NCBI RefSeq assembly: GCF_030499575.1
Contig: NZ_JASTLC010000001.1
Coordinates: forward strand, 3,062,001-3,126,000
Reading direction: 5' to 3'
Source of the DNA: Streptomyces sp. DG2A-72
Lineage (GTDB): Bacteria; Actinomycetota; Actinomycetes; Streptomycetales; Streptomycetaceae
Length of the DNA: 64,000 nucleotides
Positions 1,794-43,751 of the stretch are shown one piece after another. How positions within the stretch are numbered: position 1 is the stretch's first letter; each line of letters starts with the position of its first letter. The position numbers were made by a program, and so were the translations under genes. The notes beneath the pieces were generated by a model that saw only the letters and a list, made by a program, of their open reading frames with translations, searched no databases and had not been told where the DNA came from.

Positions 1794-3257
1794 GTGTCCT
1801 CTCTCTTCCCCACCCTGACCCATGGCCCGACCGCCGACCGGCCCGCGCTGCGGTTCGGCGACCGCTCCCTGACCTACGGGCAGCTCGCCGCCGCGGCCGG
1901 CGCGACGGCCGGGAGAATCCGGGGCGCGGGGCGGGTGGCCGTCTGGGCGACCCCGGCGCTGGAGACGGCCGTCGCCGTGGTGGCGGCGCTGGAGGCCGGG
2001 GTGGCCGTCGTACCGCTGAACCCGAAGTCGGGCGAGAAGGAGCTGGGGCACATCCTGGCCGACAGCGCCCCGTCGGCCGTACTGACCGCACCCGGCACTG
2101 AACTCCCATCCCTCGTAAGCGACTTGCAGCGGATCGACGTAGACCCGCAAGCCACCGGCGCCTCCGCCCCCGAAGCCCCCGAAGCCCCCGTGTCCCCCGA
2201 AGATCCCGCCCTCGTCGTCTACACCTCCGGCACCACCGGCCCACCCAAGGGCGCCGTCCTCCCGCGCCGCGCGCTCGCCACCACCCTCGACGCGCTCGCC
2301 GACGCCTGGCAGTGGACCGGCGACGACATCCTCGTCCACGGCCTCCCCCTGTTCCATGTGCACGGTCTCGTCCTGGGCGTCCTCGGCCCGCTGCGGCGCG
2401 GTGGGTCCGTCCGCCACCTCGGCCGGTTCAGCACGGAGGGCGTGACACGCGAGCTGAACGACGGCGCGACCATGCTCTTCGGCGTACCGACGATGTACCA
2501 CCGCATCGCCCAAGCCCTGCCCGGCGAACCGGAGTTGGCGAAGGCTCTCGCCCATGCCCGGCTGCTCGTCTCCGGGTCGGCCGCGCTGCCCGTGCACGAC
2601 CACGAGCGGATCGCGGCGGCGACCGGCCGCCGGGTGATCGAGCGGTACGGCATGACGGAGACGCTGATGAACACCAGCGTGCGGGCCGACGGGGAGCCGC
2701 GGGCGGGGACGGTGGGCGTACCGCTGCCGGGCGTGGAGCTGCGGCTCGTCGAGGAGGACGGGGCGGCCATCACGTCGTACGACGGCGAGACCGTGGGGGA
2801 GATCCAGGTGCGCGGGCCGAACCTGTTCACCGAGTACCTCAACCGGCCGGACGCGACGGCCGCCGCGTTCACCGCCGACGGCTGGTTCCGTACCGGTGAC
2901 ATGGCGGTGCGGGACCCCGACGGCTATGTCCGGATCGTCGGGCGCAAGGCCACCGACCTGATCAAGAGCGGGGGGTACAAGATCGGGGCGGGCGAGATCG
3001 AGAACGCGCTGCTGGAGCACCCGGGGGTGCGGGAGGCCGCGGTCACCGGTGAGCCCGACGCCGACCTGGGTGAGCGGATCGTCGCCTGGATCGTCCCCGC
3101 GGATCCCCAATCCCCGCCCGCCGACGACGAGTTGGCCGATCACGTGGCCCGTCGCCTCGCCCCGCACAAGCGACCGCGCGTCGTGCGTCACCTCGACGCC
3201 CTGCCCCGCAACGACATGGGGAAGATCATGAAGCGGGAGCTGAGCACCGATGGCTGA
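1794..3257 (+). CDS. matB: Malonyl-CoA synthetase (acyl-CoA synthetase, MatB-like)
   Basis: A 487-residue ANL-superfamily ligase. The GTG start at 1794 is set by TTAAGGAG at 1778-1785. Visible motifs are the P-loop YTSGTTGPPKG (143-153), RYGMTE (about 283), GWFRTGDM (about 363), the hinge/A8 segment GRKATDLIKSGGYKIGAGEIE near 383 and the catalytic-lysine segment NDMGKIMKREL (about 478). MatB adenylates malonate or methylmalonate and transfers it to CoA; in Streptomyces it supplies polyketide extender units. Size and neighbours fit MatB rather than acetyl-CoA synthetase (about 650 residues). It overlaps the next gene by 8 bp, so the two are translationally coupled. Confidence 0.85.
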   Translation: MSSLFPTLTHGPTADRPALRFGDRSLTYGQLAAAAGATAGRIRGAGRVAVWATPALETAVAVVAALEAGVAVVPLNPKSGEKELGHILADSAPSAVLTAPGTELPSLVSDLQRIDVDPQATGASAPEAPEAPVSPEDPALVVYTSGTTGPPKGAVLPRRALATTLDALADAWQWTGDDILVHGLPLFHVHGLVLGVLGPLRRGGSVRHLGRFSTEGVTRELNDGATMLFGVPTMYHRIAQALPGEPELAKALAHARLLVSGSAALPVHDHERIAAATGRRVIERYGMTETLMNTSVRADGEPRAGTVGVPLPGVELRLVEEDGAAITSYDGETVGEIQVRGPNLFTEYLNRPDATAAAFTADGWFRTGDMAVRDPDGYVRIVGRKATDLIKSGGYKIGAGEIENALLEHPGVREAAVTGEPDADLGERIVAWIVPADPQSPPADDELADHVARRLAPHKRPRVVRHLDALPRNDMGKIMKRELSTDG

Positions 3258-4689
3258 CCGTCTCACCGCCCGCGAGATGATCGCCCTCGTCGCCGACGGC
3301 TTCTCCGAACTCCCGCCCCCGCCGGATCAGTCCGCCCCGGACGGCCCCCTCGCCTGGCAGGGTTACGACGCCTCGCGCGCCCGCGCCGCCGAACGCACGG
3401 GCGAGCAGGAGTCCGTCGTCTGCGGCACGGCACACATCGAGGGCACGCACGCGCTGCTGATCGCCTTCGAATTCGGTTTCCTGGGCGGCTCGTTGGGCGA
3501 ACGGACCGGCGACCGCATAGAGGCCGCCCACGCTCACGCCCGCGCCCACCGTCTCCCCGTCGTCCCGCTTCTCGCCACCGGCGGCAGCCGTATGCAGGAG
3601 GGGATGCTCGCGCTCACCCAACTCCAGCGCGTGGCCCGGCAGTCCGCCCTCACCCGCGAGGCGGGCCTGCCCCAGATCGCCGTGCTCCGCGACCCGACGA
3701 CCGGCGGCGGCTGGGCCACGCTCGGCGCGGGCGCGGATGTCGTCCTCGCCCTACCCGGGGCCCAGGTCGGCTTCGCGGGCTCCCGGGTGCGGCCCCCCGA
3801 CGCGGATCCTGCCGCGTATACGGCGGAGGCGCAGGTGGCGGCCGGTGCGGCGGACGCGGCCGTACGGCCGGAGGAACTGCGGGAGACGCTGGGGCTGTGG
3901 CTGAGGCTTCTGACGGGATCGTCGGCACAGGAGGCGCCGGTCCCCCGGGCGCTGGGCGCCGCGGCGGAGCCCCCCGCAGCCGGAGCCGGCAGCACGACGG
4001 AGCCCGCCATCACGAGCGACGCGGCCGAGGCCGGGACCGGCCGCACACCGTCACCCTCCGTCCACGGCGGCACCCCGAACCTCCCGCCAACAGGCTGGGC
4101 CGCCGTCCAGCGCGCCCGCTCGCCTCAACGCCCGCGTGCCCAGGCCTACTTGGACGCCTACTTCACCCACCGCGCCGCCCTCAGCGGTGACCGCTGCGGC
4201 GGCACCGACGCGGGGATGCTCTGCGGGTTCGGCGAGCACGGCGGTCGTACGGTCGCGTACGCGGCGCAGGCCGGGACGGCGACCCGGCCCGCCGGTTACC
4301 GTACGGCCGCCCGTCTGATCAGGCTGGCCGACCGGCTCGGCATCCCCGTGCTGACGCTGGTGGACACCCCGGGTGCGGCCAATGACGCCGAGGCGGAGCG
4401 GCAGGGGGTGGGCGCGGCGATCGCGGACGTGTTCGCCGCGGTGGCCGCCGCCCGTACGCCGATCACCACCCTCCTCATCGGCGAGGGCGGCTCGGGTGGA
4501 GCGCTGGCGCTGGCCGCGCCCGGCAACACCTGGGCCACACCGGACAGTTACTTCTCGGTGATCGCACCGGGGCCGGCCGCGGCGATCCTGAAGCGTCCGC
4601 CGGAGGAGGTCGAGGCGACGGCGGACCAGCTCCGTATCCGGCCGCAGGACCTGGCGGAGCTGGGGGTGATCCGGGGCGTGGCCGACTGA
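3250..4689 (+). CDS. Fused carboxyltransferase (MdcD/MdcE-like, biotin-independent)
   Basis: 479 residues with two crotonase-fold carboxyltransferase halves. The N-terminal half (about 1-220) has FEFGFLGGSLGERTGDRIEA and GGSRMQEGMLALTQL, typical of malonate decarboxylase beta subunits. The C-terminal half (about 290-479) has TLVDTPGAANDAEAERQG and GEGGSGGALALA, typical of gamma subunits. A variable Ala/Pro-rich linker lies between. Its position immediately after matB suggests it decarboxylates malonyl-CoA, or a malonyl thioester, to the acetyl form. No acyl-carrier or transferase subunit of classical malonate decarboxylase is seen nearby, so CoA may be the direct carrier (inference). Confidence 0.75.
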   Translation: MADRLTAREMIALVADGFSELPPPPDQSAPDGPLAWQGYDASRARAAERTGEQESVVCGTAHIEGTHALLIAFEFGFLGGSLGERTGDRIEAAHAHARAHRLPVVPLLATGGSRMQEGMLALTQLQRVARQSALTREAGLPQIAVLRDPTTGGGWATLGAGADVVLALPGAQVGFAGSRVRPPDADPAAYTAEAQVAAGAADAAVRPEELRETLGLWLRLLTGSSAQEAPVPRALGAAAEPPAAGAGSTTEPAITSDAAEAGTGRTPSPSVHGGTPNLPPTGWAAVQRARSPQRPRAQAYLDAYFTHRAALSGDRCGGTDAGMLCGFGEHGGRTVAYAAQAGTATRPAGYRTAARLIRLADRLGIPVLTLVDTPGAANDAEAERQGVGAAIADVFAAVAAARTPITTLLIGEGGSGGALALAAPGNTWATPDSYFSVIAPGPAAAILKRPPEEVEATADQLRIRPQDLAELGVIRGVAD

Positions 4690-4780
4690 CTCCCGGCGGA
4701 ACCCGGTGACATCACCATGCACCGTCCGTAACAATGGAGTTCGTACAGGTCACATACATCACGGGGGATCGGGCGGCGCC

Positions 4781-5131
4781 ATGGACGGGTTGATGGAGTT
4801 CCAGACCGAGGGCGGCGCCATGGTGGTCGTGGAGGGTGTCGAGGACGAGTCGGGCGCCCGGCTGGTCTCGCGCGGCGACGGGCCGGCGCGGGCGGCGGGC
4901 ACGTTCGAGGGCGCGCTGGACGGGGTCCGGGCGGCGGCCGAGTCCGCGTTGCGGGTCTTCCGGGACGGCTCGCTGCGGCCGGAGTCGGTGGAGCTGGAGT
5001 TCGGGGTGAAGCTGACCGCCGAGTCCGGAGCGGTCATCGCCAAGGGGTCGGCGGAGGGTCATTTGGTGGTGAAGCTCAGCTGGTCCCCGGGGCAGACCCC
5101 GGCCGCACCGGAGGCCGCCGGCCGGTCATGA
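4781..5131 (+). CDS. Trypco1 / CU044_2847-family small protein of a conflict system
   Basis: 116 residues from ATG 4781; in-frame ATG 4706 is possible but adds a poorly conserved leader. The body (MEFQTEGGAMVVVEGVEDE, then an FEGALDGVRAAAESALRVFR helix and EFGVKLTAESGAVIAKGSAEGHLVVKLSW strands) matches the family called CU044_2847 or trypsin-co-occurring domain 1. These proteins are encoded beside trypsin-like proteases in bacterial conflict modules. The stop overlaps the protease start in an ATGA arrangement at 5128-5131. Molecular function is not established; an accessory or effector-partner role is inferred from co-occurrence. Confidence 0.8.
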   Translation: MDGLMEFQTEGGAMVVVEGVEDESGARLVSRGDGPARAAGTFEGALDGVRAAAESALRVFRDGSLRPESVELEFGVKLTAESGAVIAKGSAEGHLVVKLSWSPGQTPAAPEAAGRS

Positions 5132-6792
5132 GCAGCGCTGCCTGGCACGCCCGGATCTCCTGCGGGAACGAGGTCGGCGCGGGCTTCCTGGTCTCCCCCC
5201 GCCGTGTCCTCACCTGCGCCCACGTCGTGCGCTGGAGCGGCGCGTCGGCGGTGACGGTGACCTTCCCCAACAGCAGAGGGCTCGATCCGCTGCCCGCCAC
5301 CGTGACCGCCCACGGCGGCTGGTCGGGCGGCGCGGCCGACCCCGGTGATCTGGCCGTCCTCGAACTGGGCCGCGAAGTCCCGCTGGCGCCCGCCGAGTTC
5401 GCGCCGCCGGGCGCCGAACTGGGCGACCCCGCACCGACGCTCGTCGCCTACGGCTTCCCCAAGGGGTACGACGAGGGCATGCTCGCCCGGTACCAGGCCG
5501 TGCCCGGCGCACTGGTCTCGGACGAATGGCGTCAGCTGGAGGCCGTGACGGCCCACGGGCAGCCCCTGGCGGCCGGCTTCAGCGGCGCGGCGGTGACCCT
5601 CCCGGACGGCAGGGTCGTCGGCATGGTGGCGTCGGTCGCGGGTGCGCGGGACGTCCGGGTCGGGCGGATGCTGCCCACCCAGGTCATGGCCCGCTACTGG
5701 CCCGAGCTGGGCGAGCGGGTCCCCACTCCCGACCATCACCCCGATGCCGTAAGGCGGTTGTACACGCTGGTGCGAAGGGCGGTGGCGCACGACGTGGACT
5801 GCGATCCGAACCGGCTGTACGTCGATGCCGTGGGCCCGTTCGGGCCGCAGTTGCCGGAGGGCGGGTTCGCCTCGCTGGGGGCGGCTGCCGGGTATGTGCA
5901 GTGGGAGGTGCCGGGCGCGGAGGCGGTGGGCCGGTTCGCCGACCGGCTGCAGGAGCTGCTGGACGCGCCGCCCGCCCGGCCCGCCGCCGCGCACGCATGG
6001 TCGCCGATCCTGGTCGAGATCGAGCACAGCGGTGCCGGCATCGACCAGGTCACCGTCGAGGTGTCCGCCTACCGCGACGGGCACCGGCGGCGCGTCGGGT
6101 CGCGCAGGTTGCCGCGCACCGCCGTACGGGCGTACGTCCAGGAGCGCATCGACGAGGCGTTCACCCAGCTCGCTCCGGACGCGGACGAGCTGATCACGTT
6201 CGTACTGCCCCGCGAGTGGCTGAACGAACCGGTGGCGCACTGGGAGTGCGGTGAGGACGACTCCACCCCTCTGGGCTGTGCCTATCCGCTGGTCGTGGTG
6301 GACCGGTCCCGGCACCGCAGCGGGCGGCTGCGGCACCGGCTGGCCAAGCGGTGGCAGCAGCTGGACGCCTGTCCCGGCGCGCGGCTGCACCGCGTGGAGT
6401 GCGGTGCCCCGGAGCGGCCCCCGAGCCTGCGCAAGCGGCTGCGCGACCACTCCGCCGACCTGGCGGGATTCGCCTTCCCGCCGTCCACCGCACAGCCGCA
6501 CTTCGAGGTCGGCCTCAACACCCCGGTGCCGGTGCTGCTGTGGTCGCGCACGGGCTGTGCCGACCTGCGGCACGACGGTCCCTGTTCCGGAGCCGCGTTC
6601 CTCGACGAGCTGTCCGCCTCCGTCGCCGATGTCCCGCCCATCGAACTCCCGCGTCACGTCATGGAGTTGAGGGAGGCGGCGGACGCGGACGACGATCCGG
6701 AGAGCCACTGGGCGAAGGACGTCCAGCTGCTCTGGGACGACCCGCGCTGCTTCCCCGAGCCCGCCACCTCCCTGCACTCACCCGTCGCCTGA
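5128..6792 (+). CDS. Trypsin-like serine protease fused to a VMAP-C domain
   Basis: 554 residues, cytoplasmic (no signal peptide). Residues 1-200 form a trypsin-fold protease with an intact triad: His32 (VLTCAHVV), Asp74 (DPGDLAVLEL) and Ser152 (AAGFSGAAVTL). From about 215 onward is a VMAP-C-type region (PDAVRRLYTLVRRAV; WSPILVEIEHSGAGIDQVTV; FVLPREWLNEPVAHWE; PVPVLLWSR; HWAKDVQLLWDDPRCFPEP). VMAP (vWA-MoxR-associated protein) couples an N-terminal effector to a NTPase-controlled module, so the protease is the likely effector here. Family and motif reading is firm; the defensive role is inferred. Confidence 0.85.
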   Translation: MSSAAWHARISCGNEVGAGFLVSPRRVLTCAHVVRWSGASAVTVTFPNSRGLDPLPATVTAHGGWSGGAADPGDLAVLELGREVPLAPAEFAPPGAELGDPAPTLVAYGFPKGYDEGMLARYQAVPGALVSDEWRQLEAVTAHGQPLAAGFSGAAVTLPDGRVVGMVASVAGARDVRVGRMLPTQVMARYWPELGERVPTPDHHPDAVRRLYTLVRRAVAHDVDCDPNRLYVDAVGPFGPQLPEGGFASLGAAAGYVQWEVPGAEAVGRFADRLQELLDAPPARPAAAHAWSPILVEIEHSGAGIDQVTVEVSAYRDGHRRRVGSRRLPRTAVRAYVQERIDEAFTQLAPDADELITFVLPREWLNEPVAHWECGEDDSTPLGCAYPLVVVDRSRHRSGRLRHRLAKRWQQLDACPGARLHRVECGAPERPPSLRKRLRDHSADLAGFAFPPSTAQPHFEVGLNTPVPVLLWSRTGCADLRHDGPCSGAAFLDELSASVADVPPIELPRHVMELREAADADDDPESHWAKDVQLLWDDPRCFPEPATSLHSPVA

Positions 6793-6843
6793 GCCGCCCG
6801 CCGACCACCACCACGACACGAACCACCCACGGAGAGAAGATCC

Positions 6844-7851
6844 ATGCCCCTGTGGCCCGTCTACACCGGCACGACCGAGCCGCATGACGGCATCGACCGG
6901 CTGCCGCCGCCCCCGCCCTGGCGGGCCTTCGACGGTGGCCCGGTGCTCGACGCCCCGGACGGGGCCGCCGACGCGTCGGCCGTCTCCCCGGACCGCACCC
7001 ATCGCGCCGCGACGTACCGGGCCACCCCGCAGACCGTCCAACTGGTCAACGCGGCCCTGTACTTGCGCCGCCCGCTGCTGGTGACGGGGCCGCCCGGCAC
7101 CGGCAAGTCCTCCCTGGTGTACGCGGTCGCGCGCGAGCTGAGCCTCGGCCCGGTCCTGCGCTGGAACATCACCAGCCGCAGCACCCTGCACGACGGCCTC
7201 TACCAGTACGACCCGCTGTCCCGCCTGTACGCGGCCCGGCACACCCCGGCGGCGGAGACCGGCGGCGCGGGCGGCATCGAGGACCACCTCCGGCTGGGCC
7301 CGCTGGGCACCGCCCTCCTCCCCTACGCCCGGCCGCGCGCCCTGCTCATCGACGAGATCGACAAGAGCGACCTCGACCTGCCCAACGACCTGCTGAACGT
7401 GCTGGAGGAGGGCCAGTACGAGATCCCCGAACTGATCCGGGGCGCCCGCACGGCCCAGGTGATGATCGACGGCACCGACCAGCGGGCGCCGGTGCGGCGC
7501 GGCCGGGTCCGCTGCCGGGCCTTCCCCTTCGTCGTCCTCACCAGCAACGGCGAGCGTGAGTTCCCGCCCGCCTTTCTGCGCCGCTGTGTGACCTTGCACC
7601 TGCGGCAGCCCGACGACGGCCAGCTCGCCGACATCGTCCGCGCCCACTTCGACGAGGAGCCCGACGCCTACGCGCAGACCCTGATCGACCGTTTCCTGTC
7701 CCGGGTGGGCGGCGGCGACCTCGCCACCGACCAGCTGCTGAACGCCATCTACCTGGCCCGCTCCTCCGACCTGGCCGCCGAGTCCCTCGACGAGCTGGCC
7801 GAGCAGCTGATGCCGTATCTGAGCGAGGCACCGCAGACCGATGCCTTCTGA
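6844..7851 (+). CDS. MoxR-type AAA+ ATPase of the conflict module
   Basis: 335 residues from ATG 6844 with GGAGAGAAGA just upstream. Walker A is GPPGTGKS at 82-89. Walker B (ALLIDEIDKSDLDLPNDLLN) lies at about 165-185, followed by the sensor segment VLTSNGEREFPPAFLRRC near 230. This is the MoxR layout, in which hexameric ATPases remodel partner proteins, often with von Willebrand A proteins. No vWA protein is present here; the downstream 1643-residue protein would have to act as the partner. The 11-bp overlap with that gene implies coupled expression. Confidence 0.9.
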   Translation: MPLWPVYTGTTEPHDGIDRLPPPPPWRAFDGGPVLDAPDGAADASAVSPDRTHRAATYRATPQTVQLVNAALYLRRPLLVTGPPGTGKSSLVYAVARELSLGPVLRWNITSRSTLHDGLYQYDPLSRLYAARHTPAAETGGAGGIEDHLRLGPLGTALLPYARPRALLIDEIDKSDLDLPNDLLNVLEEGQYEIPELIRGARTAQVMIDGTDQRAPVRRGRVRCRAFPFVVLTSNGEREFPPAFLRRCVTLHLRQPDDGQLADIVRAHFDEEPDAYAQTLIDRFLSRVGGGDLATDQLLNAIYLARSSDLAAESLDELAEQLMPYLSEAPQTDAF

Positions 7852-10800
7852 GCGCCCCGGACCGCGCACGCCGCTGCGCCGCCTGGCCGACATGCTGGCC
7901 GAGGCGTCCGGCGGCCCGCAGCCGACCCCGCTCGAACTGGCCGAACTCCTGTGGCTGGCCCGCCATATGGAGCCCCCGGCCGAATCCCCGGCCGCCCCTG
8001 CCGCGCGGGCCCCCGCCGATGTCGTACGCCCTCCCGCAGCCGCGACCAAGGCACCGCCGCCATTCCCGTCCGGGCAACAGAACATCGGCGAGCCGTCCGC
8101 GCCGCCGCCATCCCCTCGCGCCCCGCTGCACCTGCCCGCGCCTGAGCCCGCGCCGGCCACGAAACCCCAGGTGACGGCCGAACCCCACACCACCCTCCTG
8201 GCCCCCGCGCCCCCGATGCTGCGCCACCCCCTGGCCCTGCAACGCTCCCTGCGCCCGCTCAAGCGCCGTACCGACGCCCCCGACCGGCTCGAACTGGACG
8301 AGCGGGCCACGGCCGACCGCATCGCCCGCCTCGGGGCCGCCCCCGAGTGGTGGCTGCCGGTGCTGCGGCCCGCGCGGGAGCGCTGGCTGCGGCTGAACCT
8401 GGTGTACGACACGGGCCCGACCATGCCGGTCTGGCGCCCCCTGATCCGCGAACTGCACACCGCGCTCGTCCAGTCCGGGATCTTCCGCACGGTCACCCTG
8501 CACCGCGCCCACCCGGACGGCACCGTGCGCTCCCTCCCCGGCGACGGCCGCACGGTCACCCTCCTGGTCAGCGACTGCATGGGCCCGCAGTGGCGGCAGG
8601 GCCCGGCCGGCACCCGCTGGTTCGGCACGCTGGCCCGCTGGGCGCACCGGATGCCGCTGGCCGTCGTACAGCCCCTCCCGGAACACCTGTGGCGGGACAC
8701 GGCCCTGCCGTCGACGCCGGGCCGCCTGTCGGCACCGCATCCGGCGGCACCGGCGGCCTCGCTCGCGTTCACGCCGTACGACGGCGCTCTCGACGAGCCG
8801 GACGGCACCGGCACCGTCCCGCTGCCCGTGCTGGAGCCGGGGGCGCGCTGGCTGGCGAACTGGGCGGCGCTGGTCGCGGCGCCGGGAGGGCAGGAATTTC
8901 CCGGTTCGGCGGCCCGGCTGGGCGGACCGCTGCCGGCTGCCTCCGACAACCGTACGGACATCACCGGCCTGTCCGCCGAGGACCTGGTCCTCCGCTTCCG
9001 CGCGACGGCCTCGCCTCAGGCGTTCCGGCTGGCCGGCCATCTCGCGCTCGGTCGCCCGGACCTGCCGGTCATGCGCCTCGTCCAGGCCGCCGTCGAGCCA
9101 CATCCGCGCCCCCAGCATCTCGCCGAGGTGATCCTCAGCGGCATGCTCACCGCGGTCCCCGGCCCGCCCGGGTCGTATGCCTTCCGGCCCGGCGTGGGCG
9201 AACTGCTGCTGCGCGGCCTGCCGCGTACCGCGCGGGGGCGTACGGCCGAACTGCTCGCCCGGGTGGGCGGGTTGATCGACGAGCGGGCGGGAGTGGCGCC
9301 GGGTGAGTTCCGGGCGTCCACACCGGCGGCGGGCGGTACGCCGACCGTCGTGGACGGGGAGGCGTTCGCGACGGTCACCACGGAGAGCGTGCGGCAGCTG
9401 ACGGGCGGGGGCGCGGGGACGTCGGGGTCCGTGCCGCCGGTTCTCGCGGGCCGCTACCGGATGCTGGGCTTGTTCAGGCCGGACGGCACATTGTGGCGGG
9501 CCCACGACACCGAGGCGGACCGGACCGTCGTGATCCGGCGGCAGCGCCCGGTCACCGACCCCGAGCGGCGGGAGGCCTTCCTGCGGGAGGCACGGATCCT
9601 GAAGGGCATCGACCACCCGGGTGTGGTGACCGTCCACGACTTCGGCATCGAGGACGGCACCCCCTACGTGGTGATGGAGCATCTGGACGGCATCCCGCTC
9701 AACGCGATGGCCGCGGTGGGCGGTTACGAGCTTCCGTATCCGCTGCTGGTGTCGATCGGGACGCAGCTCGCGCGGGCCCTTCTGACCTGCCACATGTCCG
9801 GCATCACCCACGGAGGGCTCGAAATGGGGCGGGTCGTCCTCCTGCCCGACGGCACGGTCAAGCTCAGCCACTTCACACCGGGCCGGACCGCCGGCCCTCA
9901 GGTGCGCGCGGAGGATCTGCGGGCCCTGGCCGAGCTGCTGCTCGAACTGGCGGCGGCGACCGCGTGGCTGACGCGGCCGGTGCACCCGGACCAACTGATC
10001 CATCTGCCGAGCAGCTTGCGTCCGCAGTTCGCGGACGCCATCGACCGGCTGCTGTCCCAGGTCCTGAACACCCAGATGGAGGGCCTGGAACAGCTCATCT
10101 CCCCGGACTTGGCGCCGGCGGCCCGTGAGGCCTACGAACAGCGCTTCCACTACGTCCTGGGTCCACTGCACGTGGAAGGCCCGACCGGCGACATCCCCAT
10201 CCCCCCGGACCTCCGGCCCATGCTCGCCATGCTGCTGCTCAGACACGGCCGCAAGGTGACCCACGACGAACTGGCCGCCGGCGTGTGGGGCCCGGGCGAG
10301 GCGCCGCAGGACACCGTGGCCGAACTGGGCCGGCAGGCGTCCGAGCTGCGCGCCCTGCTGGGCCCCGGCACCCTCGCCGTCCAGCCCGACGGCTACGCCC
10401 TGCACACGAGCGCCGACTTCGTGGACCTGATCGAGTGCGAACGGCTCGTGGAACGGCTCGTGGCCCGCACGCCCCGCAACCGCGCGGACTACGACCGGGC
10501 CCTGAAGCTCTGGCGCAGCGGCGAACCCCTCGCCGGCGTCCCCGGTCCCGCCGCGCACACCGCCCGCGCCCAGCTCCAGCAGCTCCGCCTCGGCCTCTAC
10601 CGCTCCCGTGCCGAACTCGACCTGGAGCGCGGTGAGTTCGAGCGCGTCGAGACCGACCTCGCCGAGCTGCTCCGCGCCCATCCCGCCCGTGAGGACTTCC
10701 GCCGCCTGTACATCATCGCGCTCCGCCGCCAGGGCCGTACCGAGGAGGCTCTGGAGGCGTACGAGGAGTACGAGGTGTCCGGCGGCCTGAATCCGGAACT

Positions 10801-12772
10801 GCGGACCCTGGGGCACGAACTGCGCGAAGAGCTGGAGAGGTTCGACGACGCTCCGGAGGGCGGGTACGAGGAGCCCGCCGCCGACAGCACCGTCACCGAC
10901 TACCTGCTCGGCTACGCCGCGGCGGCCGAGGAGCAGCCGCCGGAGGAGCCGTCGGAGGAGCCGCTTCCTCAGGAGGACGTGCCGGTCGACCCGCGCGACG
11001 AACTCCCGCCGGAGGCCTTCGGCAATGAGGGCGACGAACCGGACGTCGACCCACGCGACTGCGCCGCCTTCGAGTTCGTGGACGGCCCGCCGTCCGACGA
11101 GGCGCTGGAGGACCTCCGCCGGCTGGTCACGATCCTGCTCACAGTGAGTGGTCTCGACTCCTACCAGTACGAACTACGGGAATTCCGCACGGGGTTCACG
11201 GTGCTGACTGCGCCGTACCTGGACACTGCTCCCCTCTTCCGGGCGACCGTGGCCGGGCTGCCGGAGCTGCTGGAGCGCCTGGACGGCCGCCGCCTCCGGG
11301 TGGAGTTCTGGCAGGCGTGGTTCCGGCGGGAGGGCAGCGAGGGGGGCAGTGACCGGCCGGCCGCCGAGGCGGTGACGGCCGCGCTGGACGCGTCCGGTGC
11401 GCGGGCGGTCCTCGCCTTCTCGGACTTCTGGCACCAGGTGGAGGTCGACGAGAATCCCGACGCGGACCCGGGGCTGTTCGAGCCGTTGGGCGACGGGACG
11501 GGGTGGTACCGCGCGGTCCGGCCCGACGAGGTGCGCGAAGCGCCCGCGGCGGACGCCGTGGTAGACGTCTCCGGCACGGCCTACGACATGGTCACGGCGT
11601 CGACCGCCCCCGTGGTGCGCGGCCCCTTCCCCATGCCGGCTGACTGGGGACTCGTACGTGCGGAGAGGGCGTCCGAGGCCGTCGTCCTCTCCCTCCCCGG
11701 CGGCGAACTCGTCCCGCTGGACTCGTCTTTGGCCCGCTTCGCACCCGATCACGTCCGTGCGACCTGGAGCTACTTCACGGTCGACCTGGCGGAGCGCGGC
11801 CTCACGCCCGATGCCGTGCCCGGCGTCGAGGTGAGATGGTCCGTCAACGACCCGGTGAAGGCCGCGAGCAACCCCGGTCTCGACCTGCCCGGCCTGCTGA
11901 CCGAAACGCTGCTCGGCGCGCGGGGCCTGTACGGCGACGGACTGCGCGAGGCACTGGCCCGGACGAAGGTGCCCGGCTATGGCATCCGCTGGATCCTGCC
12001 CGCCGAGGTCCAGAGCGCGCCGCTCGGTACCCGGCCCGACCGGTCCCGCCCCGCCAATACCTCCTCGGCGCTCATCGCCGGCGCCGACGCGGTCATCCTC
12101 GCCTTCGACGACGTGCTGGCCCGTATGTTCCCGGCGGGCGCCGAGCGGGAGGTGCTGCGGGACGTGGCGCGGCTCATCTCGGAGGAACGTGATCCCGAGG
12201 ACGCGCTGACCGGGCAGCCGCTGCTGCCGGGTGGCGGGCCGGTTCCGCCGCTGGAGGGGCACGCCAACTCCCTCGATCTGCTCAGGGCGTTCGCCGGACA
12301 CGGCCTGGCGCAGGAGGTGCGCCGCCGGATCGACCGGCACGAGGCGCGGGCGGCGGCGACCGCGCGGCCCACCCCGCTGGCCGACCAGTTGGTGAGCGCC
12401 CTGCGCGCGGGGGACGTCCCGCTGGCCGTGGTGACCGACCGGGCGCCCGAGCCGGTCAGGAAACACCTGAACCGACGGGGCCTGACGCGGCACTTGGCGG
12501 GTGGCGTGCACGGCCGCGGCACCGACCTCGCTCTCCTCATGCCGCACCCGCACGTCCTCCAGCAGGCCCTCGACCGGCTGGGCGTGCCGGCCGCCCGCTG
12601 CGTGATGATCGGCTCCACCGTCGCCGAGCGGGCCGCCGCCCGCGCCGTCGGCCTGCCGTTCATCGGCTTCTGCCCGGACGACCAGACCCGGCGGCGACTG
12701 CGCGCGGCGGACGCCGAGACACCCCTCGTCACAAGCCTCCGTACGCTCATGACCGCCGCCCGATACCGCTGA
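7841..12772 (+). CDS. Giant SAV_2336-related / pseudokinase / wHTH-BTAD / pseudo-HAD protein
   Basis: 1643 residues with this order: SAV_2336-type N-terminal region (about 1-45 and 145-490) split by a Pro-rich linker; protein-kinase fold (about 534-765); winged helix plus BTAD helical repeats like SARP activators (about 770-1003; WGPGEAPQDTVAEL, EFERVETDLAELLRAHPARE); an acidic linker; two stretches I do not recognise (about 1060-1400); and a HAD-like C-terminus (about 1410-1643). The kinase lacks the Gly-rich loop, has VVIRR for the lysine strand, HGG for HRD and SHFTPG for DFG. The HAD motif reads AFDDV, with Ala where the nucleophilic Asp should be. Both enzyme folds therefore look catalytically dead. 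Likely a sensor/scaffold for the MoxR-protease unit (inference). Confidence 0.8.
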   Translation: MPSERPGPRTPLRRLADMLAEASGGPQPTPLELAELLWLARHMEPPAESPAAPAARAPADVVRPPAAATKAPPPFPSGQQNIGEPSAPPPSPRAPLHLPAPEPAPATKPQVTAEPHTTLLAPAPPMLRHPLALQRSLRPLKRRTDAPDRLELDERATADRIARLGAAPEWWLPVLRPARERWLRLNLVYDTGPTMPVWRPLIRELHTALVQSGIFRTVTLHRAHPDGTVRSLPGDGRTVTLLVSDCMGPQWRQGPAGTRWFGTLARWAHRMPLAVVQPLPEHLWRDTALPSTPGRLSAPHPAAPAASLAFTPYDGALDEPDGTGTVPLPVLEPGARWLANWAALVAAPGGQEFPGSAARLGGPLPAASDNRTDITGLSAEDLVLRFRATASPQAFRLAGHLALGRPDLPVMRLVQAAVEPHPRPQHLAEVILSGMLTAVPGPPGSYAFRPGVGELLLRGLPRTARGRTAELLARVGGLIDERAGVAPGEFRASTPAAGGTPTVVDGEAFATVTTESVRQLTGGGAGTSGSVPPVLAGRYRMLGLFRPDGTLWRAHDTEADRTVVIRRQRPVTDPERREAFLREARILKGIDHPGVVTVHDFGIEDGTPYVVMEHLDGIPLNAMAAVGGYELPYPLLVSIGTQLARALLTCHMSGITHGGLEMGRVVLLPDGTVKLSHFTPGRTAGPQVRAEDLRALAELLLELAAATAWLTRPVHPDQLIHLPSSLRPQFADAIDRLLSQVLNTQMEGLEQLISPDLAPAAREAYEQRFHYVLGPLHVEGPTGDIPIPPDLRPMLAMLLLRHGRKVTHDELAAGVWGPGEAPQDTVAELGRQASELRALLGPGTLAVQPDGYALHTSADFVDLIECERLVERLVARTPRNRADYDRALKLWRSGEPLAGVPGPAAHTARAQLQQLRLGLYRSRAELDLERGEFERVETDLAELLRAHPAREDFRRLYIIALRRQGRTEEALEAYEEYEVSGGLNPELRTLGHELREELERFDDAPEGGYEEPAADSTVTDYLLGYAAAAEEQPPEEPSEEPLPQEDVPVDPRDELPPEAFGNEGDEPDVDPRDCAAFEFVDGPPSDEALEDLRRLVTILLTVSGLDSYQYELREFRTGFTVLTAPYLDTAPLFRATVAGLPELLERLDGRRLRVEFWQAWFRREGSEGGSDRPAAEAVTAALDASGARAVLAFSDFWHQVEVDENPDADPGLFEPLGDGTGWYRAVRPDEVREAPAADAVVDVSGTAYDMVTASTAPVVRGPFPMPADWGLVRAERASEAVVLSLPGGELVPLDSSLARFAPDHVRATWSYFTVDLAERGLTPDAVPGVEVRWSVNDPVKAASNPGLDLPGLLTETLLGARGLYGDGLREALARTKVPGYGIRWILPAEVQSAPLGTRPDRSRPANTSSALIAGADAVILAFDDVLARMFPAGAEREVLRDVARLISEERDPEDALTGQPLLPGGGPVPPLEGHANSLDLLRAFAGHGLAQEVRRRIDRHEARAAATARPTPLADQLVSALRAGDVPLAVVTDRAPEPVRKHLNRRGLTRHLAGGVHGRGTDLALLMPHPHVLQQALDRLGVPAARCVMIGSTVAERAAARAVGLPFIGFCPDDQTRRRLRAADAETPLVTSLRTLMTAARYR

Positions 12773-12977: not shown

Positions 12978-14018
12978 GTGACCGACAGTCTGAACCAGTT
13001 GCGCCGTTGCCACTTCGCCGTCGACCTGGGGGCGGCACGGACCCGGGTCTATCTGAAGGGGACCGGGCTCGTCGTCGACCAACCGTCGGCGGCGGCCGTG
13101 AACACCAGGACCGGTGCGCTGATCGCGGTCGGGGAGTCCGCGGAGCGGATGACGGGCCGTACGCCGCCATACATCCGGGTCGTCAGGCCCGTATCGGGTG
13201 GCAGCGTCGTCGACATCGAGATGGCGCAGCGGATGCTGCGGCATCTGCTCGGCGACAAGATCCGCCGCTCGCTGCGCCGCAAGCCGTTCCTGCGGGCCGC
13301 CGCCTGCACACCGCACGACGCGGACCCGCTGGCCCAGCGGGCGACGATCGAGACGCTCGTCGGGCTCGGTGCGCGCCGGGTCGAGCTCGTCGACACGCTG
13401 ATCGCCGCCGCCGTCGGCTGCGGGCTGCCCGTCGAGCAGCCGGAGGCCACGATGGTGCTGGTGTGCGGGGCCGCCGCCACGCAGATCGCCGTGCTGTCGC
13501 TGGGCGCGATCGTGACCGCCGAGCGTATCTCCGTGGGCGGCGAGGCCGTCGACCGCGCGATCGTGCAGCACCTGCGGCACCAGCACGAACTGATGCTGCC
13601 GAGCCAGTCCGTACGGCCCCTGCAGCTCGCCCTCTCCGGCAACGGACTCACGCCCCACGGGCCCGCCTCCACCGAGATCCACGGCCGGGACGTCGCCACC
13701 GGTCTCGCCCGTTCCGTGCACGTAGACACCGCCGCCGTACGCGACGTCATCCAGACTCCGCTCACCGCCGTCCTCGACGGTATCGGCAAGGTGCTGCGGG
13801 ACTGCCCGCCCGACCTGGTGGCCGACCTGTCCGACCGGGGGGTCATGATGGTCGGCGGGAGCGCCCTGATTCCGGGGCTCGACCAGATGGTGCGGCAGGC
13901 GACCGGTATGCCGGTGCACATCGCGGAACGGCCCGACGTGTGTGCCGTACAGGGTCTCGGCTGCATGCTGGAGGGCGAGATCGAGCCGATCGCGCTCGAC
14001 ACGAGCACGACGAACTGA
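12978..14018 (+). CDS. mbl: MreB-like actin homologue, Mbl type
   Basis: 346 residues from GTG 12978, with GGGAGG seven bases upstream. The actin/HSP70 fold is seen in HFAVDLGAARTRVYL (phosphate 1), VCGAAATQIAVLSLGAI (phosphate 2) and MMVGGSALIPGLDQMVRQ (adenosine motif). It is shorter than MreB because the segment between the first strands and the LVDTLIAAAVGCGLPV core is compact, as in Streptomyces Mbl, which lacks part of subdomain IB. Mbl works with MreB in spore-wall integrity. It stands away from an mreBCD cluster, as expected. The C-terminus is followed by a short direct repeat. Confidence 0.8.
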   Translation: MTDSLNQLRRCHFAVDLGAARTRVYLKGTGLVVDQPSAAAVNTRTGALIAVGESAERMTGRTPPYIRVVRPVSGGSVVDIEMAQRMLRHLLGDKIRRSLRRKPFLRAAACTPHDADPLAQRATIETLVGLGARRVELVDTLIAAAVGCGLPVEQPEATMVLVCGAAATQIAVLSLGAIVTAERISVGGEAVDRAIVQHLRHQHELMLPSQSVRPLQLALSGNGLTPHGPASTEIHGRDVATGLARSVHVDTAAVRDVIQTPLTAVLDGIGKVLRDCPPDLVADLSDRGVMMVGGSALIPGLDQMVRQATGMPVHIAERPDVCAVQGLGCMLEGEIEPIALDTSTTN

Positions 14019-32766: not shown

Positions 32767-33096
32767 TCACATCTCGGGTTCTCCCGCGGGGTCCAAGGCG
32801 TAGGTGACCCTTTCCCCGACCCGCACCGCGGCCTCGATCATTCTCTGCCGCTCGCCCCCCGTGTAAAGGTCGGCGCAGGCACTGATCGCCGGATACAGCT
32901 CCGAGAGGATGAGGGCGGCCGATTTCGGAATGACCTCGGCCGTGCGCCAGTGCTGCCCGAGCCGGTCGATCTGCCTGCACAGCTCGTCCAGCGCGAGCCG
33001 ATCGAACCCGTCGTTCAGGCGCAGGGGAACGATGAATCCGTCAGCCGCTTCGCTCAGCTGCGACACAAGTTCCTCGTCCACTGGATCATTCCTCAT
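32767..33096 (-). CDS. Probable immunity protein for the RHS toxin
   Basis: 109 residues from ATG 33096, whose start overlaps the toxin 3' end by 11 bp. It is a small, acidic, helical, soluble protein (EELVSQLSEAADGFIVPLRL, DELCRQIDRLGQHWRT, AALILSELYPAISACADLYT) with no signal peptide. I do not recognise a named family. Position right after, and overlapping, the toxin tip is the standard placement of the cognate immunity gene; the function is inferred from that. Confidence 0.6.
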   Translation of the reverse strand: MRNDPVDEELVSQLSEAADGFIVPLRLNDGFDRLALDELCRQIDRLGQHWRTAEVIPKSAALILSELYPAISACADLYTGGERQRMIEAAVRVGERVTYALDPAGEPEM

Positions 33097-36000
33097 CTTC
33101 GACCATTCCGATGATGGCGCTTGGGTTTATGTATCTCTCGACCAGAGCCTCTTGCGATGATTGCGCGTTTGTGTTCGCAGACCATCCCCGCAGGTACCTT
33201 GCCCTGTTTTCCGCCGAGGTGAGATCGACCAGCCGCGCCTCGACTTTGTCGCCGTCGATGATAGCGACCCGCTGACCGGGCTGGCGCCACTTCTTGATCA
33301 CATCCCAGCTCTTCGTCACCGAAATCCACTGGGTCCGTACCCGACTCCCCTGACCTATCTGCACGTTGATGGTGTAGTCACCGTCGACGTTCTTGGCGAA
33401 CAATCCCTCTGCCGGATCCTCGTCGGGGCGCAGATTTCTGTACCAGATTCCGGCAGCTGCTGCCGAGGGTCCTCCACGCAGAACGTCTTTGAGTGACTCT
33501 CCCGACGAGTCCGACGAAGCCATCGGGAAATACCCGAAGTCGGTGGAGTTGTGAGCATCGGGCCGGCTCTTGGGGCAGGCTCCGGGGGCCTCGTCGCAGA
33601 AGACCTCCCAGAACGTCTCACTCGCCAGGTGGATTCCGTTGCGGGCGTCCCACATGTCGTTGGAGTCCGTCATCCGGTTCTGCTTGTCGACCATGTGGAG
33701 TGCGTCGAGCCATGCGCGTTTCGCCTCCTCGCCGAACTGGCGCGGCGGGATCGGCGCGATCGTTACCGGATCGCTCGCCGGGGCCCTGCCGGTGCCACCG
33801 CCGCCGCCGCATTTGTGCGTGTCGCAGTAGTAGCTGGAGCCCTTGTACTTCTTCGACCCTGGGTCTTGTTCAGGGTGATAGGTGCCGTACGTGCCGTTGT
33901 TTCCGGAGCAGAAGTGAACGGGCCCACAGCTTTCCAGGCCCGTGGGATCGCTCTGGGTCACCGGGCTGTTGTCGGCGTAGGTGTAGCCATTGAGGGATTG
34001 GGTGTCGCTCGTGTCGAGTTCCGGGTCGACGCTGAGGAAACGCCCGGTGGCCGCGTCGTATTCGCGGGCGCCGACGTAGGTGAGGCTGGTGGAAGAGTCG
34101 GCGGACTTACCGAGAAAGGCTTTGTCGTCGGGCCAGTTGCCGGTGCCGCCGGTGCGAGAGGCGCCGAAGGGGGTGCTGTATCGCTTCGTGACCGCCTGAC
34201 TGGTGGCGTCGAGGGCAAGGCTGCTGGTGCCGTGCTGGTCGGACGAGAGCCAGGAGAGGGTCTCGGTGCCGGTCTTGTCGGTGCGCAGAGCGATGACCTG
34301 GCCGCCGGCGTTGTAGTACCGCTGGGCCCAGTACTTGGCGGTCGAGGTGGAAGTGTCGAGGTGTACCTCTGTGCCGTCGTCGAGGTAGAGGACGCTCTCT
34401 CCGCCGGTGTTGCGGCGGATCAGGAGAGTGCCGTCGGCGTCGTAGACGTGGCTGGTGGTGCTCTTCGTGGTGCCGGAACCGGACTTCTCGGTGAGGGTGC
34501 CGAGTTGGCCTTCGGGGCTCCAGGTAAGGCTCTGGGTGTCGGTGCCGTTCGGGCGGCCGGTGGTGTTGCCGGTCGCGTCGTAGGCGTACGTCGCGGTCAC
34601 ACCTGTGCATGAAGTGGCCGTGGTGATGGCAGTCAGGCCGTGGGGGTGAGCGTTGTCGCCGTAGCAGTACGTCCTGGTGGTGTCACCGGTGGAGGTGTGG
34701 CTGGTCTCCGTGGAGCGCAGGCCGCCGTCGGTGTAGCGGTACGAGGTCCAGTACGGGGCGGCGCCCCCGAGGTTCGCGGTGGTACGGCCGGAGGCGGAGC
34801 AGTCGGCGGTGGACGGGGTCCAGGCCTCGGTCAGGCGTTGGTGGCCGTCGTAGGCGAAGCACTGGTTGTCGGCCTTGCCGGTGCCGCCGAGGGTGGTGGG
34901 GTCGGTGATGGAGGTGACGCTGCCGGCGTCGTCGTAACCGTAGTTCAGTTCCTGCAGCTCGTAGTTGTGGGTCTGGTCAGTGACCGCCGACTGTTTGAGC
35001 CGGTCGGTGCCTTCCTCCCAGGTGTTGGTGATGTAGGCCTTCTTGGTGCCCGCGGCCGTGGAGGTGCCCAGGGTGAACTGCTGAGGCTGGCCGATTTCGG
35101 AGTAGGCGGCGCCGAGCAGGTAGCCGCTGAGGCCGGCCATGTCCGTGGGCAGACCGGCACTGTCGTAATGGGTGACGACCTTCTCCGCGGCCAGACCCCC
35201 GGCGGCCGGTTCGGAGATGTACTGCTGGGTGCCGTCGAGGTTGTAGTACGTCGAGAGGGTCAGCGTGGAGGTGACGGCGCCGGAGGTGACCAGGGCGTCG
35301 GTCGAGGGCAGGAGCAACTGGGTGGTGGTCGGCCGGTACAGGCTGTCGTAGGCGGTGACCTTGCGGGTGTAGGCGGTGCCGGTCACCCCTCCGACGTAAC
35401 TGGTGGACGAGTCCAGCTGCCCCTTGGCCAGGGTGTCGTAGGCCCAGTGGACGAGCTTGTCGGCGTCCGTCTTGGCCGTCTGCCACTGGTCGGTCCTGCG
35501 GCCGAGTTCGTCGTAGCCGTACAGGAGGGTGGTCTTGCGGGAGTCGGTGGTGGTGGCGACCTGGTCCAGGTCGGTGTAAGACGTCGTGCTCGTGCCCTTG
35601 TCCGGGTCTGTCGCCGAGGTCTGACGGCCGAACAGGTCGTACGTGTAGGACCACTGTGTGCCGTCGGGGCCGGTGACGACGTCCGGCTTGGAGTCACGGG
35701 TGTAGGTGTACTTCGTGGAGGTGTAGGCAGCGCCGACGCCCGCACCGTAGGCGGTGTCGGCCGGGTCGGTACCGGAGTACTCGCGCTGCTCGGTGGTGCG
35801 GCCGAAGACGTCGGTGATGGTGCGGGCCGCGGAGCCTCCGGCCAGGGCGGTGGTGGCGGTGGAGTCTCCGGTGTACGTCGTCGATGTGGCCCGCTTCTTG
35901 ACGCCGTAGACGTAGAAACTGCTGCTGGTCGGGCGTTCGGCGCCGTCGAAGACCGTGTTGGTCTGCTTCGGCGCGCCGCCGTATTCGGCGCGGGCGTAGC

Positions 36001-39000
36001 TGCCGGACGGGGTGGCGGTGGAGTCGAAGACGTCGGCGTAGGTCTCGTAGGCCAGGCCGCGGCTGTTGTAGCGGACGTCTGTCAGCAGCCGGCCGCCGTT
36101 CGCGGTCGGGGACTGGGTCTGCAGCGGCCGCAGCAGCGAATCGTAGATCGAGTAGCTGGTGTTGTAGACGCCTTCCGCGAGGATGCTGGAGGACGAGACC
36201 CAGGACGGGGCCTTGTTGGTGACGGAGTAGGCGTACGTGTAGTTGGCGCCGTATCCGGCGGCGCGCAGATGGTTGGGCAGCCAGACGGCGGTCACCCGGC
36301 CCAGCGCGTCGTACGTCGACTCGGTCAGCTTTGTGTTGACGTCGTAGACCTTGACGGGAGTGCCGCGGGCGTAGTCGAAGTAGGTGTAGGACTTCTGGGT
36401 CTTCGCGTTGGTGACCGTTGTCTTGGTGAGCGGTCCCGTCGTGGTCGGGGTATAGACGGTGGTCGTCGGGTTGCCCAGCGCGTCGGTCACGTTCAAGGGC
36501 CGGCCCAGGGTGTCGTACGTGGTCTTGTCGACGGTCTGCCAGGAGGTCGGGGACCGCTCACCGTTGGTGGCCGTGGCGGGGTAGGCGGCGGCACGTCCGG
36601 TCCAGTTCGCATCCCCCAGGGTCGGAGTCTGGGACGCGGTCCAGGCGGTGGCGGTGGTGGAGTCGTAGACCGTGGCCGCATCGGACAGTACGTCCCCGCG
36701 AGTGCTCGTCGAGGTCGGCAGGCTCAGGTCGGTCTCGGCGGTGGAGCAGGCGCGGCCGACGACGCGGGTGCGGGAGACCAGGGAGTTGATGCCCAGAGTG
36801 TCGTTGCGGGCGTACCAGGTGCGTGTGCAGGTCTCGTCGCCAGTGACGGCCGTGTCGCCGGCGTCGTAGGCGGTGGCGGGCATGCCGTAGCTGTCGAAGC
36901 TGGTGGTCACGCTGCGGGTGCGCCACTTGGCGGCAGCGGTGAGGTAGGTCGAGGTCTGCGTCTTGTAGGTGCGGACGAAGTAGGCCTCGATGTCAGCGTA
37001 CGACTTCTGCTGACTGGCCGTGCGGCTGGACCAGGGGTCGTTGGCCGTGACGGTGACCGGGGTGGACCCGTTGTAGGTGATCTGCTCGCGGGTAAAGCCG
37101 GCGAAGCGGTCGCTGTCGGTCTGATCGGCCACGCTCAGGCCGGTGAAGCCGATGCCCGGGACGGAGACCGAGCGTGTCGTGCCGTCCTTCTGCTTGTCAC
37201 CGTCCATGCCCTGCAGATACAGCGACACGGTCTTGGACTGGGTTTCGCTGGAGGCGCCCTTCAGCGTGGTGACGGTGCGGTAGCCGCGCCAGTCGGACCA
37301 GGTGCGCTCCTTGGCCGGGGTGAACGGGTCGCTGTTGTAGTGCCAGGCCGGCCCGGAGTAGCTGTAGTGGTTCTCCATCGTCTCGCCCAGACCGGTGGGG
37401 TCGGAGGTGATGACGTCGGTGACCCGGTACTTGTTGAACCAGTCCAGCGACGCCTCGGTGGCGCCGTTGACGTGCCAGTAGACCGGGTAGCAGCTCATCG
37501 TGTCGTTGTCCTCGGACGACGGCATGTTCGAGCCGCGTATGCATTCCGGGTCGGACAACGTCACCGTGGTGATGGCGCCGGCTTCGGAGGTGATGGTCTG
37601 GATGCGGGGCCGGTTCAGCGGTAGGACATTGTCCGTGGAGGAGTCGACCCGGTTTTCCCGCATCTGGTAGGTGAACGTGACCGGGTTCAGGGAGATCGCG
37701 GTCCCGTTCTTTCCGGTGTGCTGGATGCTCTTGAGGACGAGGGTCTGGTCTGTGCTGTTGCCGATGTCGCCCGGGTCGAGGAACTGTTGGGTCAGCGCCC
37801 AGGAGTCGACATCCGTGTAGGTGCTGGAGGCGGCCGACCATGCGTGGGTGTCGATGCTCGTCAGGCGCTTGCGGGTGAAGAACGCCGGGCCGGTGGCCTT
37901 GCAGTCCGCGCCGGAGGCGCAGATGGAGTCGTACGGGACGTCGGGCCAGCTGGAGGCGGTGGAGGACGTCAGCGAGGAGCAGTCGGAGGCGGTGCACCGC
38001 TCGTCATAGCTGAAGGTGACCTCGTCCGAGGCGGTGCCGGTGAACAGGGTGTCCTTGTTCTGCCCGTAGAGGATCTTGGTGAGGTAGCCGCCCCGCGTGT
38101 ACTGGGCGGTGCCGGTGGTCGCGCCGTTCTTTCCGTAGTAGTCGGTCTCCGCGGTGTACCAGTACGACATCGCGTTGGCGTGCAGGTCCACGACGTAGTC
38201 CAGGTTCCAGCGCCAGGCCTGGTCGAGGGACCGGTCGGCGAAGGCGGAGCCCTGGTCGTAGCCGGGCTCGCCGGAGTTGTTGCCGAATACCGGCACGGTC
38301 CATACGGAGTTGGTGCGCTGGGTGTCCGCTCCGGGCAGCTTGTTCAGGCCGAAGACGTACTTGGTGCCGTCGCCGGTGGTGACGGTCCAGTACTCCCCGT
38401 CGTTGTCGCCGTTGTCGGCGCCGGTGGAGTGGGTGACGGTGGAGGCGTCGTCGTCCTTCAGGTGCCAGACGCCGGTGGTGTCGTCCTTCACCAGTTCGGT
38501 GGACTTTCCGTTCAGCACGAGCGAGGCGTTGTCGTACTTCCAGCACTCGTCGTACTTGCCGCTCTCGCCGTCGTCGTCGCACGAGGCGTAGGACCGCTCG
38601 ACGTAGGAGGATGCCACGTCGCCGAAGCCCTCACCGACGAGCGTTCCCTGGTTGTTCGTCGAAGCCGTCCTGCCGTCCACGCTCCCCGAGTCGTACGACA
38701 ACGACAGCTGCGGCGACGGTCCCGCTGCGGCCGGCGGAGTGGTCAGCGGGTAGGACCAGGTGAAGCCGCCCGAAGCACTGCCTGCTTCCCAGCTGGAGGA
38801 GGCCGAGAGCGGGCTGGCCGCGTAGTTGCCGGCACCGGAGGCCGATTCCCCCGATGAGGTGGCGGTCACGGCCAGCACCGTGGCCGACGTTGTGCCGGCA
38901 GCCATCAACGACGTGCGTGGCGCCGAGCGCGAGGCCCGCGCAGTGCCGCTGCCGGCCTTCCCCAAACTGACCTTGGCCGACAGCGTCTGAGCACTGATGT

Positions 39001-39700: not shown

Positions 39701-39828
39701 GACTAGCCTCCCGCGACCGCTACCGGCCGCCTGCACACGCCAAGGGATCAAAAGAGCAAGGGGACAAGGGAGTCTGGCCGGGTGGGGCGGCTGCTTGACG
39801 CCGCCCCACCTCGTGCCTGTCACATGGG

Positions 39829-43512: not shown

Positions 43513-43751
43513 AGCCCACCCCTGAGCACTTGACGAACTGATCACAATCACTTGGCGATTGAGGAGCATGGCAGGAGCAGCAGTATTGAAGTCCAAGGGA
43601 GGCTTCAAGATCAGACAAGCAACCGCCCAGATACGAGCAAAGACTTTGATCGTTCACCTTGGCGACAGGCGTCGTACATCGGTGCGATAGCCGTCGACGG
43701 CTTGGAGGCCGTCAAACGCGTACACCTCACCACGGCCTTCGCGCCACCAGA

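Follow-up and report, generated by a model that had tools for sequence, protein, structure and literature searches.

We analysed a stretch of 64,000 nt from Streptomyces sp. DG2A-72 (assembly GCF_030499575.1, contig NZ_JASTLC010000001.1, positions 3,062,001 to 3,126,000), referred to here as the window. It contains four open reading frames (ORFs) that run in one direction and encode, in order, Trypco1, a trypsin-like protease joined to VMAP-C, a MoxR-type AAA+ ATPase and a 1643-aa vWA-component protein. Together the four genes are a VMAP ternary system, a kind of system that has already been described, and one of three in this genome. The initial annotation of this DNA had listed four genes with overlapping or near-overlapping junctions, and the ORFs are indeed arranged in this way, with a 4-nt overlap between the Trypco1 and VMAP genes, a 51-nt gap between the VMAP and MoxR genes and an 11-nt overlap between the MoxR and vWA genes. 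Profile searches likewise matched the Trypco1, trypsin-VMAP-C, MoxR and SAV_2336/kinase/BTAD/HAD domains that it had named. Its Trypco1 start, position 4781, had to be moved, as this is an internal ATG in an ORF that is open from GTG 4706. In window coordinates, the genes and their parts are as follows:

4706-5131 (+), Trypco1 gene; PF19493 5.8e-26, NF041216 2.5e-23.
5128-6792 (+), VMAP gene, encoding a trypsin-like protease, a variable middle region and VMAP-C; Trypsin_2 1.6e-13.
5713-6042 (+), VMAP middle region, in the place of VMAP-M; among the pieces that evolve faster.
6043-6744 (+), VMAP-C domain; PF20028 matched along its entire length with 159 bits (cut-off 27) and E 1.6e-46.
6844-7851 (+), MoxR-type AAA+ ATPase gene; AAA_5 6e-8.
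7841-12772 (+), gene of the 1643-aa vWA component, whose multidomain tail is variable.
7931-9292 (+), SAV_2336 N-terminal region, comprising a helical extension, a linker, the vWA domain and a C-terminal helical extension; NF041121 4.2e-128.
9440-9880 (+), pseudokinase; PF07714 1.6e-9.
10130-10822 (+), SARP/AfsR-like winged-helix and BTAD module; BTAD 1.2e-20, AfsR model 3e-38 (aa 764-975).
11021-11998 (+), two tail domains that no profile matched, with good model confidence in most parts.
12062-12769 (+), pseudo-HAD domain at the C-terminus; PF00702 2.5e-10.

VMAP ternary systems, the MoxR-vWA-centric subsystem 1 of Kaur, Burroughs, Iyer and Aravind (2020, PMC7159879), are defined by the fixed order of their VMAP, MoxR and vWA genes and by the motifs WxhapG and PsWRxa in the N-terminal part of MoxR. 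According to the available text of that survey, such systems occur in 716 organisms and are common in multicellular bacteria, Trypco1 or Trypco2 often adjoins trypsin-type VMAPs, and the vWA tail is variable, with kinases and HAD domains that are mostly or possibly inactive and with winged helix-turn-helix (wHTH) domains. The window locus has VMAP-C, the gene order, the MoxR motifs, the vWA Asp residues, an adjacent Trypco1 and a variable tail of dead enzymes. The initially proposed kinship with vWA-MoxR-VMAP systems, as a nucleoside triphosphate-dependent conflict-type operon, is thus borne out by the match of gene order, Trypco1 and MoxR motifs to the published description. No Pfam VMAP-M model matched the middle region of the window VMAP. 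A scan against PADLOC-DB yielded no full protein set of any listed defence system, the matches being weak or partial (Avs1b 1.3e-6, LmuA 2.8e-4, IetA 9.6e-5); PD-T4-6 kinases matched the pseudokinase part alone (5e-22).

The neighbourhood, whose co-occurrence the initial annotation had suggested checking, is well conserved. We worked with 79 named loci (the best of 241), which come from Streptomyces except for one Kitasatospora, one Actinomadura and one unclassified actinobacterium, and 68 of them had enough upstream DNA to be tested. All four genes were present, in order, in 64 of these 68; VMAP and MoxR were found together in 66 and Trypco1 in 64, with the order always kept and no Trypco1 match in loci L148 and L174. 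Two further loci, L178 and L179, had a SAV_2336-type vWA region but no VMAP, MoxR or Trypco1 match nearby. In the genome of DG2A-72 itself, a MoxR match and a SAV_2336 protein come after each of the three VMAP-C proteins. A Pfam scan of the two other SAV_2336 proteins detected none of the window's tail domains, in line with the remark in PMC7159879 that paralogous systems of one genome differ in their tails. Downstream of the second VMAP/MoxR/vWA set lies a TIR-NB-ARC-TPR gene (L063:12946-15945), which resembles the arrangement with a separate TIR AP-ATPase effector known from the literature. Carriage of the window VMAP by known phages was rejected, as a tblastn search of 50,697 phage records gave no match. 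Relatives of the MoxR protein were found on plasmids in 70 of 72,556 records, every one below 60% identity.

The initial annotation had seen no vWA protein here and had let the SAV_2336 multidomain protein replace the vWA hub. Both statements had to be revised: the SAV_2336 N-terminal region of the 1643-aa protein is the vWA component, and the protein carries a long variable tail behind it. The locus is therefore a standard VMAP ternary system rather than one that lacks the hub. The region contains residues of the metal ion-dependent adhesion site (MIDAS) type, D190-x-G192-x-T194 and D245, and among the best 120 of 1034 homologues by N-terminal similarity (window included) D190, T194 and D245 were present in all 120. 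In the predicted model (predicted local distance difference test, pLDDT, 87.1), D190 and D245 are located at or just past predicted strands; the published vWA domains have an Asp at the ends of core strands 1 and 4. VIA-align placed vWA domains at the top of its matches to this model, and two of these belong to MoxR-vWA machines; the MIC2 entries contain a vWA domain as well. Furthermore, the Pfam model VWA_CoxE matched an own-genome paralogue of the window protein. A sequence-profile search of the PDB with the vWA region returned no match. The motif [D/E]xxx[D/E]xxxa, published for the N-terminal helical extension, was absent at its printed spacing from residues 1-110 of the window protein, and a near, ELAExxW-type form was found in 119 of the 120 sequences. 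For the vWA alignment A2 we used 71 of the 79 named loci, and for alignment A3 38. A new system built on a SAV_2336 scaffold in place of the vWA hub could appeal to the failure of every Pfam vWA model to match the window protein and to a Foldseek search of the vWA region that, taken alone, was not decisive. We nevertheless rejected this reading on the invariant MIDAS-type residues, the VIA-align matches and the VWA_CoxE-matching paralogue, and with the canonical gene order and MoxR motifs added, it has almost no credence left. The annotation "SAV_2336 N-terminal domain" in Streptomyces is thereby indicated to mark vWA components of VMAP systems.

Conservation of catalytic residues divides the proteins of the system. 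Because seven named loci duplicate loci of our genus sample, residues of the protease and MoxR were counted on distinct sequences. The protease triad, which is found at exactly the initially annotated positions His32/Asp74/Ser152, was invariant in 89 of 89 sequences, window included. In MoxR, the Walker A K/S, Walker B DE, sensor N and Arg-Arg residues were present in 87 of 87; the N-terminal motifs read WPVYTG (for WxhapG) and PPWRAF (for PsWRxa) in the window, with the first W conserved in 84 of 87 sequences and the remaining tested positions in 86-87. The tail kinase and HAD, rightly called pseudoenzymes at the outset, lack catalytic residues throughout the family, and in the pseudokinase the beta-3 Lys was found in only 1 of 107 sequences and the HRD Asp in 6. 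The tail is also modular: its window pieces occurred in 14 combinations across the 120 homologues, with the full set in 42, window included. The SARP piece, an AfsR-like wHTH plus BTAD with a strong match to the AfsR model, could hint at a signal-to-transcription switch in which proteolysis frees a DNA-binding regulator, yet it was not found in 25 of the 120 homologues and so cannot be a common output, which makes such a switch highly improbable. The two domains at 11021-11998 had no Pfam match across 39 members, and PDB profile searches gave a best E value of 0.23 for alignment A4 (23 of 39 rows) and no match for alignment A5 (24 of 39 rows); the fold-search rows listed for their model were taken up by the HAD part. 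These domains sit where published relatives carry cyclase-like and Band-7 domains and may correspond to them, a likeness by position and reading to which the profile searches give no support.

Across the 65 named loci with a full core, median identity to the window was highest for MoxR (75.7%), vWA (71.4%) and Trypco1 (71.4%, 63 loci), lower for the protease (60.7%), VMAP-C (54.7%) and VMAP-M (52.7%, 59 loci), and lowest for the tail pieces SARP (47.0%, 42 loci), HAD (41.2%, 49 loci) and pseudokinase (36.6%, 57 loci). We estimated nonsynonymous (dN) and synonymous (dS) rates from close pairs, of which 14 of 16 independent ones were run, with 4 to 14 pairs per piece. Median dN was 0.037-0.053 for the core (MoxR, vWA, protease, VMAP-C) and 0.091-0.110, about twofold higher, for VMAP-M, HAD, pseudokinase and SARP. 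Median dS was 0.18-0.23 in the core and in VMAP-M, and the three tail pieces reached 0.29-0.30. Given their higher dN, both the tail and VMAP-M look like recognition surfaces, and as far as sequence comparison goes, the data favour neither.

Two directions of signal flow have been proposed for such systems: in PMC7159879 sensing falls to the VMAP, whose protease then releases the vWA tail, whereas in PMC10907252, for members diversified by diversity-generating retroelements (DGRs), the sensor is a variable part fused to the vWA domain, with the VMAP trypsin as effector. Our literature search found no experiment on any member of a VMAP ternary system. We prefer the model in which the tail senses and the trypsin executes, because the recognisable enzymes of the tail are dead and variable and the protease triad is invariant. 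Under this model, we consider it probable that the four genes form a conflict system whose complex holds the protease off until the variable parts meet an invader molecule, and then releases it. VMAP, MoxR and the vWA protein would form one complex, with the vWA tail and/or the VMAP middle region as the sensing surface; ATP hydrolysis by MoxR would remodel the vWA-bound complex upon a trigger from a phage or other invader; and the protease, assisted or restrained by Trypco1, would be the final effector whose release arrests or kills the infected cell. An abortive-defence role, on this inference, is plausible. The opposite flow, that of the 2020 proposal (PMC7159879), is possible, if unlikely: VMAP-M would sense, MoxR-vWA would rearrange, and the VMAP protease would cut the vWA protein, freeing the dead-enzyme tail as dominant-negative decoys or as a scaffold. 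It is consistent with the fast evolution of VMAP-M (median dN 0.095, 9 pairs) and with inactive tail enzymes, as expected of decoys. Against it stand the fact that the protease and the ATPase are the only nameable intact enzymes here and the printed alternative for DGR-diversified members (PMC10907252).

The operon occupies one chromosomal site, between two genes that do not belong to the system:

3250-4689 (+), left border, fused acetyl-CoA-carboxylase-type carboxyltransferase gene; PF03255/PF01039 and synteny.
12978-14018 (+), right border, mreB-like gene, called Mbl in Streptomyces; MreB_Mbl 1.9e-105 and synteny.

A literature search for an mreB-side location of VMAP systems found no paper. 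The operon lay 5′ of the mreB-like gene in 57 of the 68 named loci with room downstream, a steadiness that could be read as adjacency kept for function, with a housekeeping or developmental chaperone-protease serving the mreB-like neighbour or the cell wall. To follow the site across the genus, we searched 150 genomes (own included) with the VMAP protein; 72 matched, many in the protease part alone, and 29 were taken besides our own. From 65 genus-sample genomes we obtained 69 site stretches. Of these, 29 were chosen for a VMAP match; the other 40 came from the 115 genomes with a strong mreB-like match and were chosen because no full-length VMAP match was found at that gene. Since the 40 were picked for this absence, the shares given here are not genus frequencies: 21 held the complete operon, 10 traces, 11 adjacent borders with nothing in between and 16 other DNA, whereas 4 were cut by contig ends and 7 had no mreB-like gene. 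The traces show that the operon was lost. In the sister genome L065, about 4682-12599 is gone and only the last ~170 bases of the vWA gene are left, while its MreB-like protein is still 98% identical to that of the window and the flank columns are 95% identical. In L065 the carboxyltransferase gene beside the operon is also shortened, a further deletion at the same site. The next relative, L066, has a clean site with ~60 bases separating the borders. Six traces (L057, L065, L071, L072, L076, L078) are differing remnants on separate branches; the other four (L069, L075, L079, L100) consist of a Trypco1 match only and might be retained Trypco1 genes.

On a tree of the flanks (59 rows), the site changed between present and not present at least 18 times, a count that cannot tell gain from loss; the tree is of a quick type, with weak support on 15 of its 56 inner branches and less than half of the columns filled in 25 rows. 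Spearman correlations between the distances of operon genes and those of the flanking ACS or MreB proteins were 0.25-0.51, and since the two flanks correlated with each other at only 0.22-0.33, this test of co-inheritance has little power. A strong mreB-like match was present in 115 of the 150 genomes, own included, and of the 40 stretches taken upstream of an mreB-like gene that lacked a full-length VMAP match there, four were cut by contig ends and the remaining 36 contained nothing more than traces, empty borders or other DNA. Broken and missing copies and repeated state changes argue against a housekeeping role, which we consider very improbable, and for an accessory, selectable locus. The pattern at the site fits a dispensable, repeatedly lost immune-type locus.

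Plant nucleotide-binding leucine-rich repeat receptors carry integrated decoys, and by analogy the vWA tail might be an integrated-decoy receptor in which dead copies of a host kinase, a SARP regulator and a HAD enzyme bait the invader and the MoxR-vWA switch triggers the killing protease. The single locus by mreB would then be an immune locus that is repeatedly re-tailored and lost in Streptomyces lineages. We offer this only tentatively and regard it as doubtful.

Other genes were noted around the site and elsewhere in the window. Some relatives have a gene of ~1220 aa with a subtilase domain, opposite to the operon direction (L106:2963-6634 (-), L089:2868-6512 (+)), between the carboxyltransferase gene and either Trypco1 or the mreB-like gene. 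Near the lone Trypco1 match of two relatives lies a FAD/cytokinin-dehydrogenase-like gene (L069:9002-10516, L075:2894-4402). On the minus strand, at window positions 33086-43608, two ORFs of great length (2264 and 1259 aa) have the look of a polymorphic-toxin-type locus, with an RHS repeat and a DUF7587 match under the cut-off and a Laminin_G_3 domain.

The locus is a good test case: its site is fixed, sister genomes hold either complete or empty alleles, two of its enzymes are recognisable and intact, and its tail can be trimmed stepwise. New here are the co-occurrence in 64 of 68 loci, the invariant triad set against dead tail enzymes, the roughly doubled dN of the tail and VMAP-M, and the state changes at a single site.

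Among known machines, NorQ-NorD and midasin likewise pair a MoxR-type ATPase with a MIDAS vWA partner and are among the top structural matches of our model, but their roles differ (cofactor insertion and ribosome assembly). To our knowledge, neither has a VMAP or protease component. A close homologue of the vWA component, P0042 (BN159_5883 of Streptomyces davaonensis JCM 4913), is 72% identical over the first 490 residues and has all tail pieces, although these are just 47-57% identical to those of the window. S. davawensis JCM 4913, of the same strain number, carries six VMAP systems (PMC7159879). The DGR-linked VMAP systems of Thiohalocapsa and cyanobacteria described in the available part of PMC10907252 likewise have a trypsin-VMAP, MoxR and a vWA protein; in those systems a C-type-lectin domain that the retroelement mutates forms the variable part, whereas the variable part of the window system includes dead enzyme domains. 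CRISPR-linked members of VMAP systems are listed in PMC10910872. With the VMAP ternary systems of PMC7159879, the window system shares the gene order, Trypco1 beside a trypsin-VMAP, the MoxR motifs, an inactive tail kinase and HAD, fast-evolving parts and the presence of several systems per Streptomyces genome with differing tails. The main text of that paper, as far as available, names neither BTAD nor MreB and does not describe the insertion site or the traces of loss. Measured against the same text, no feature of the window system puts it outside the family.
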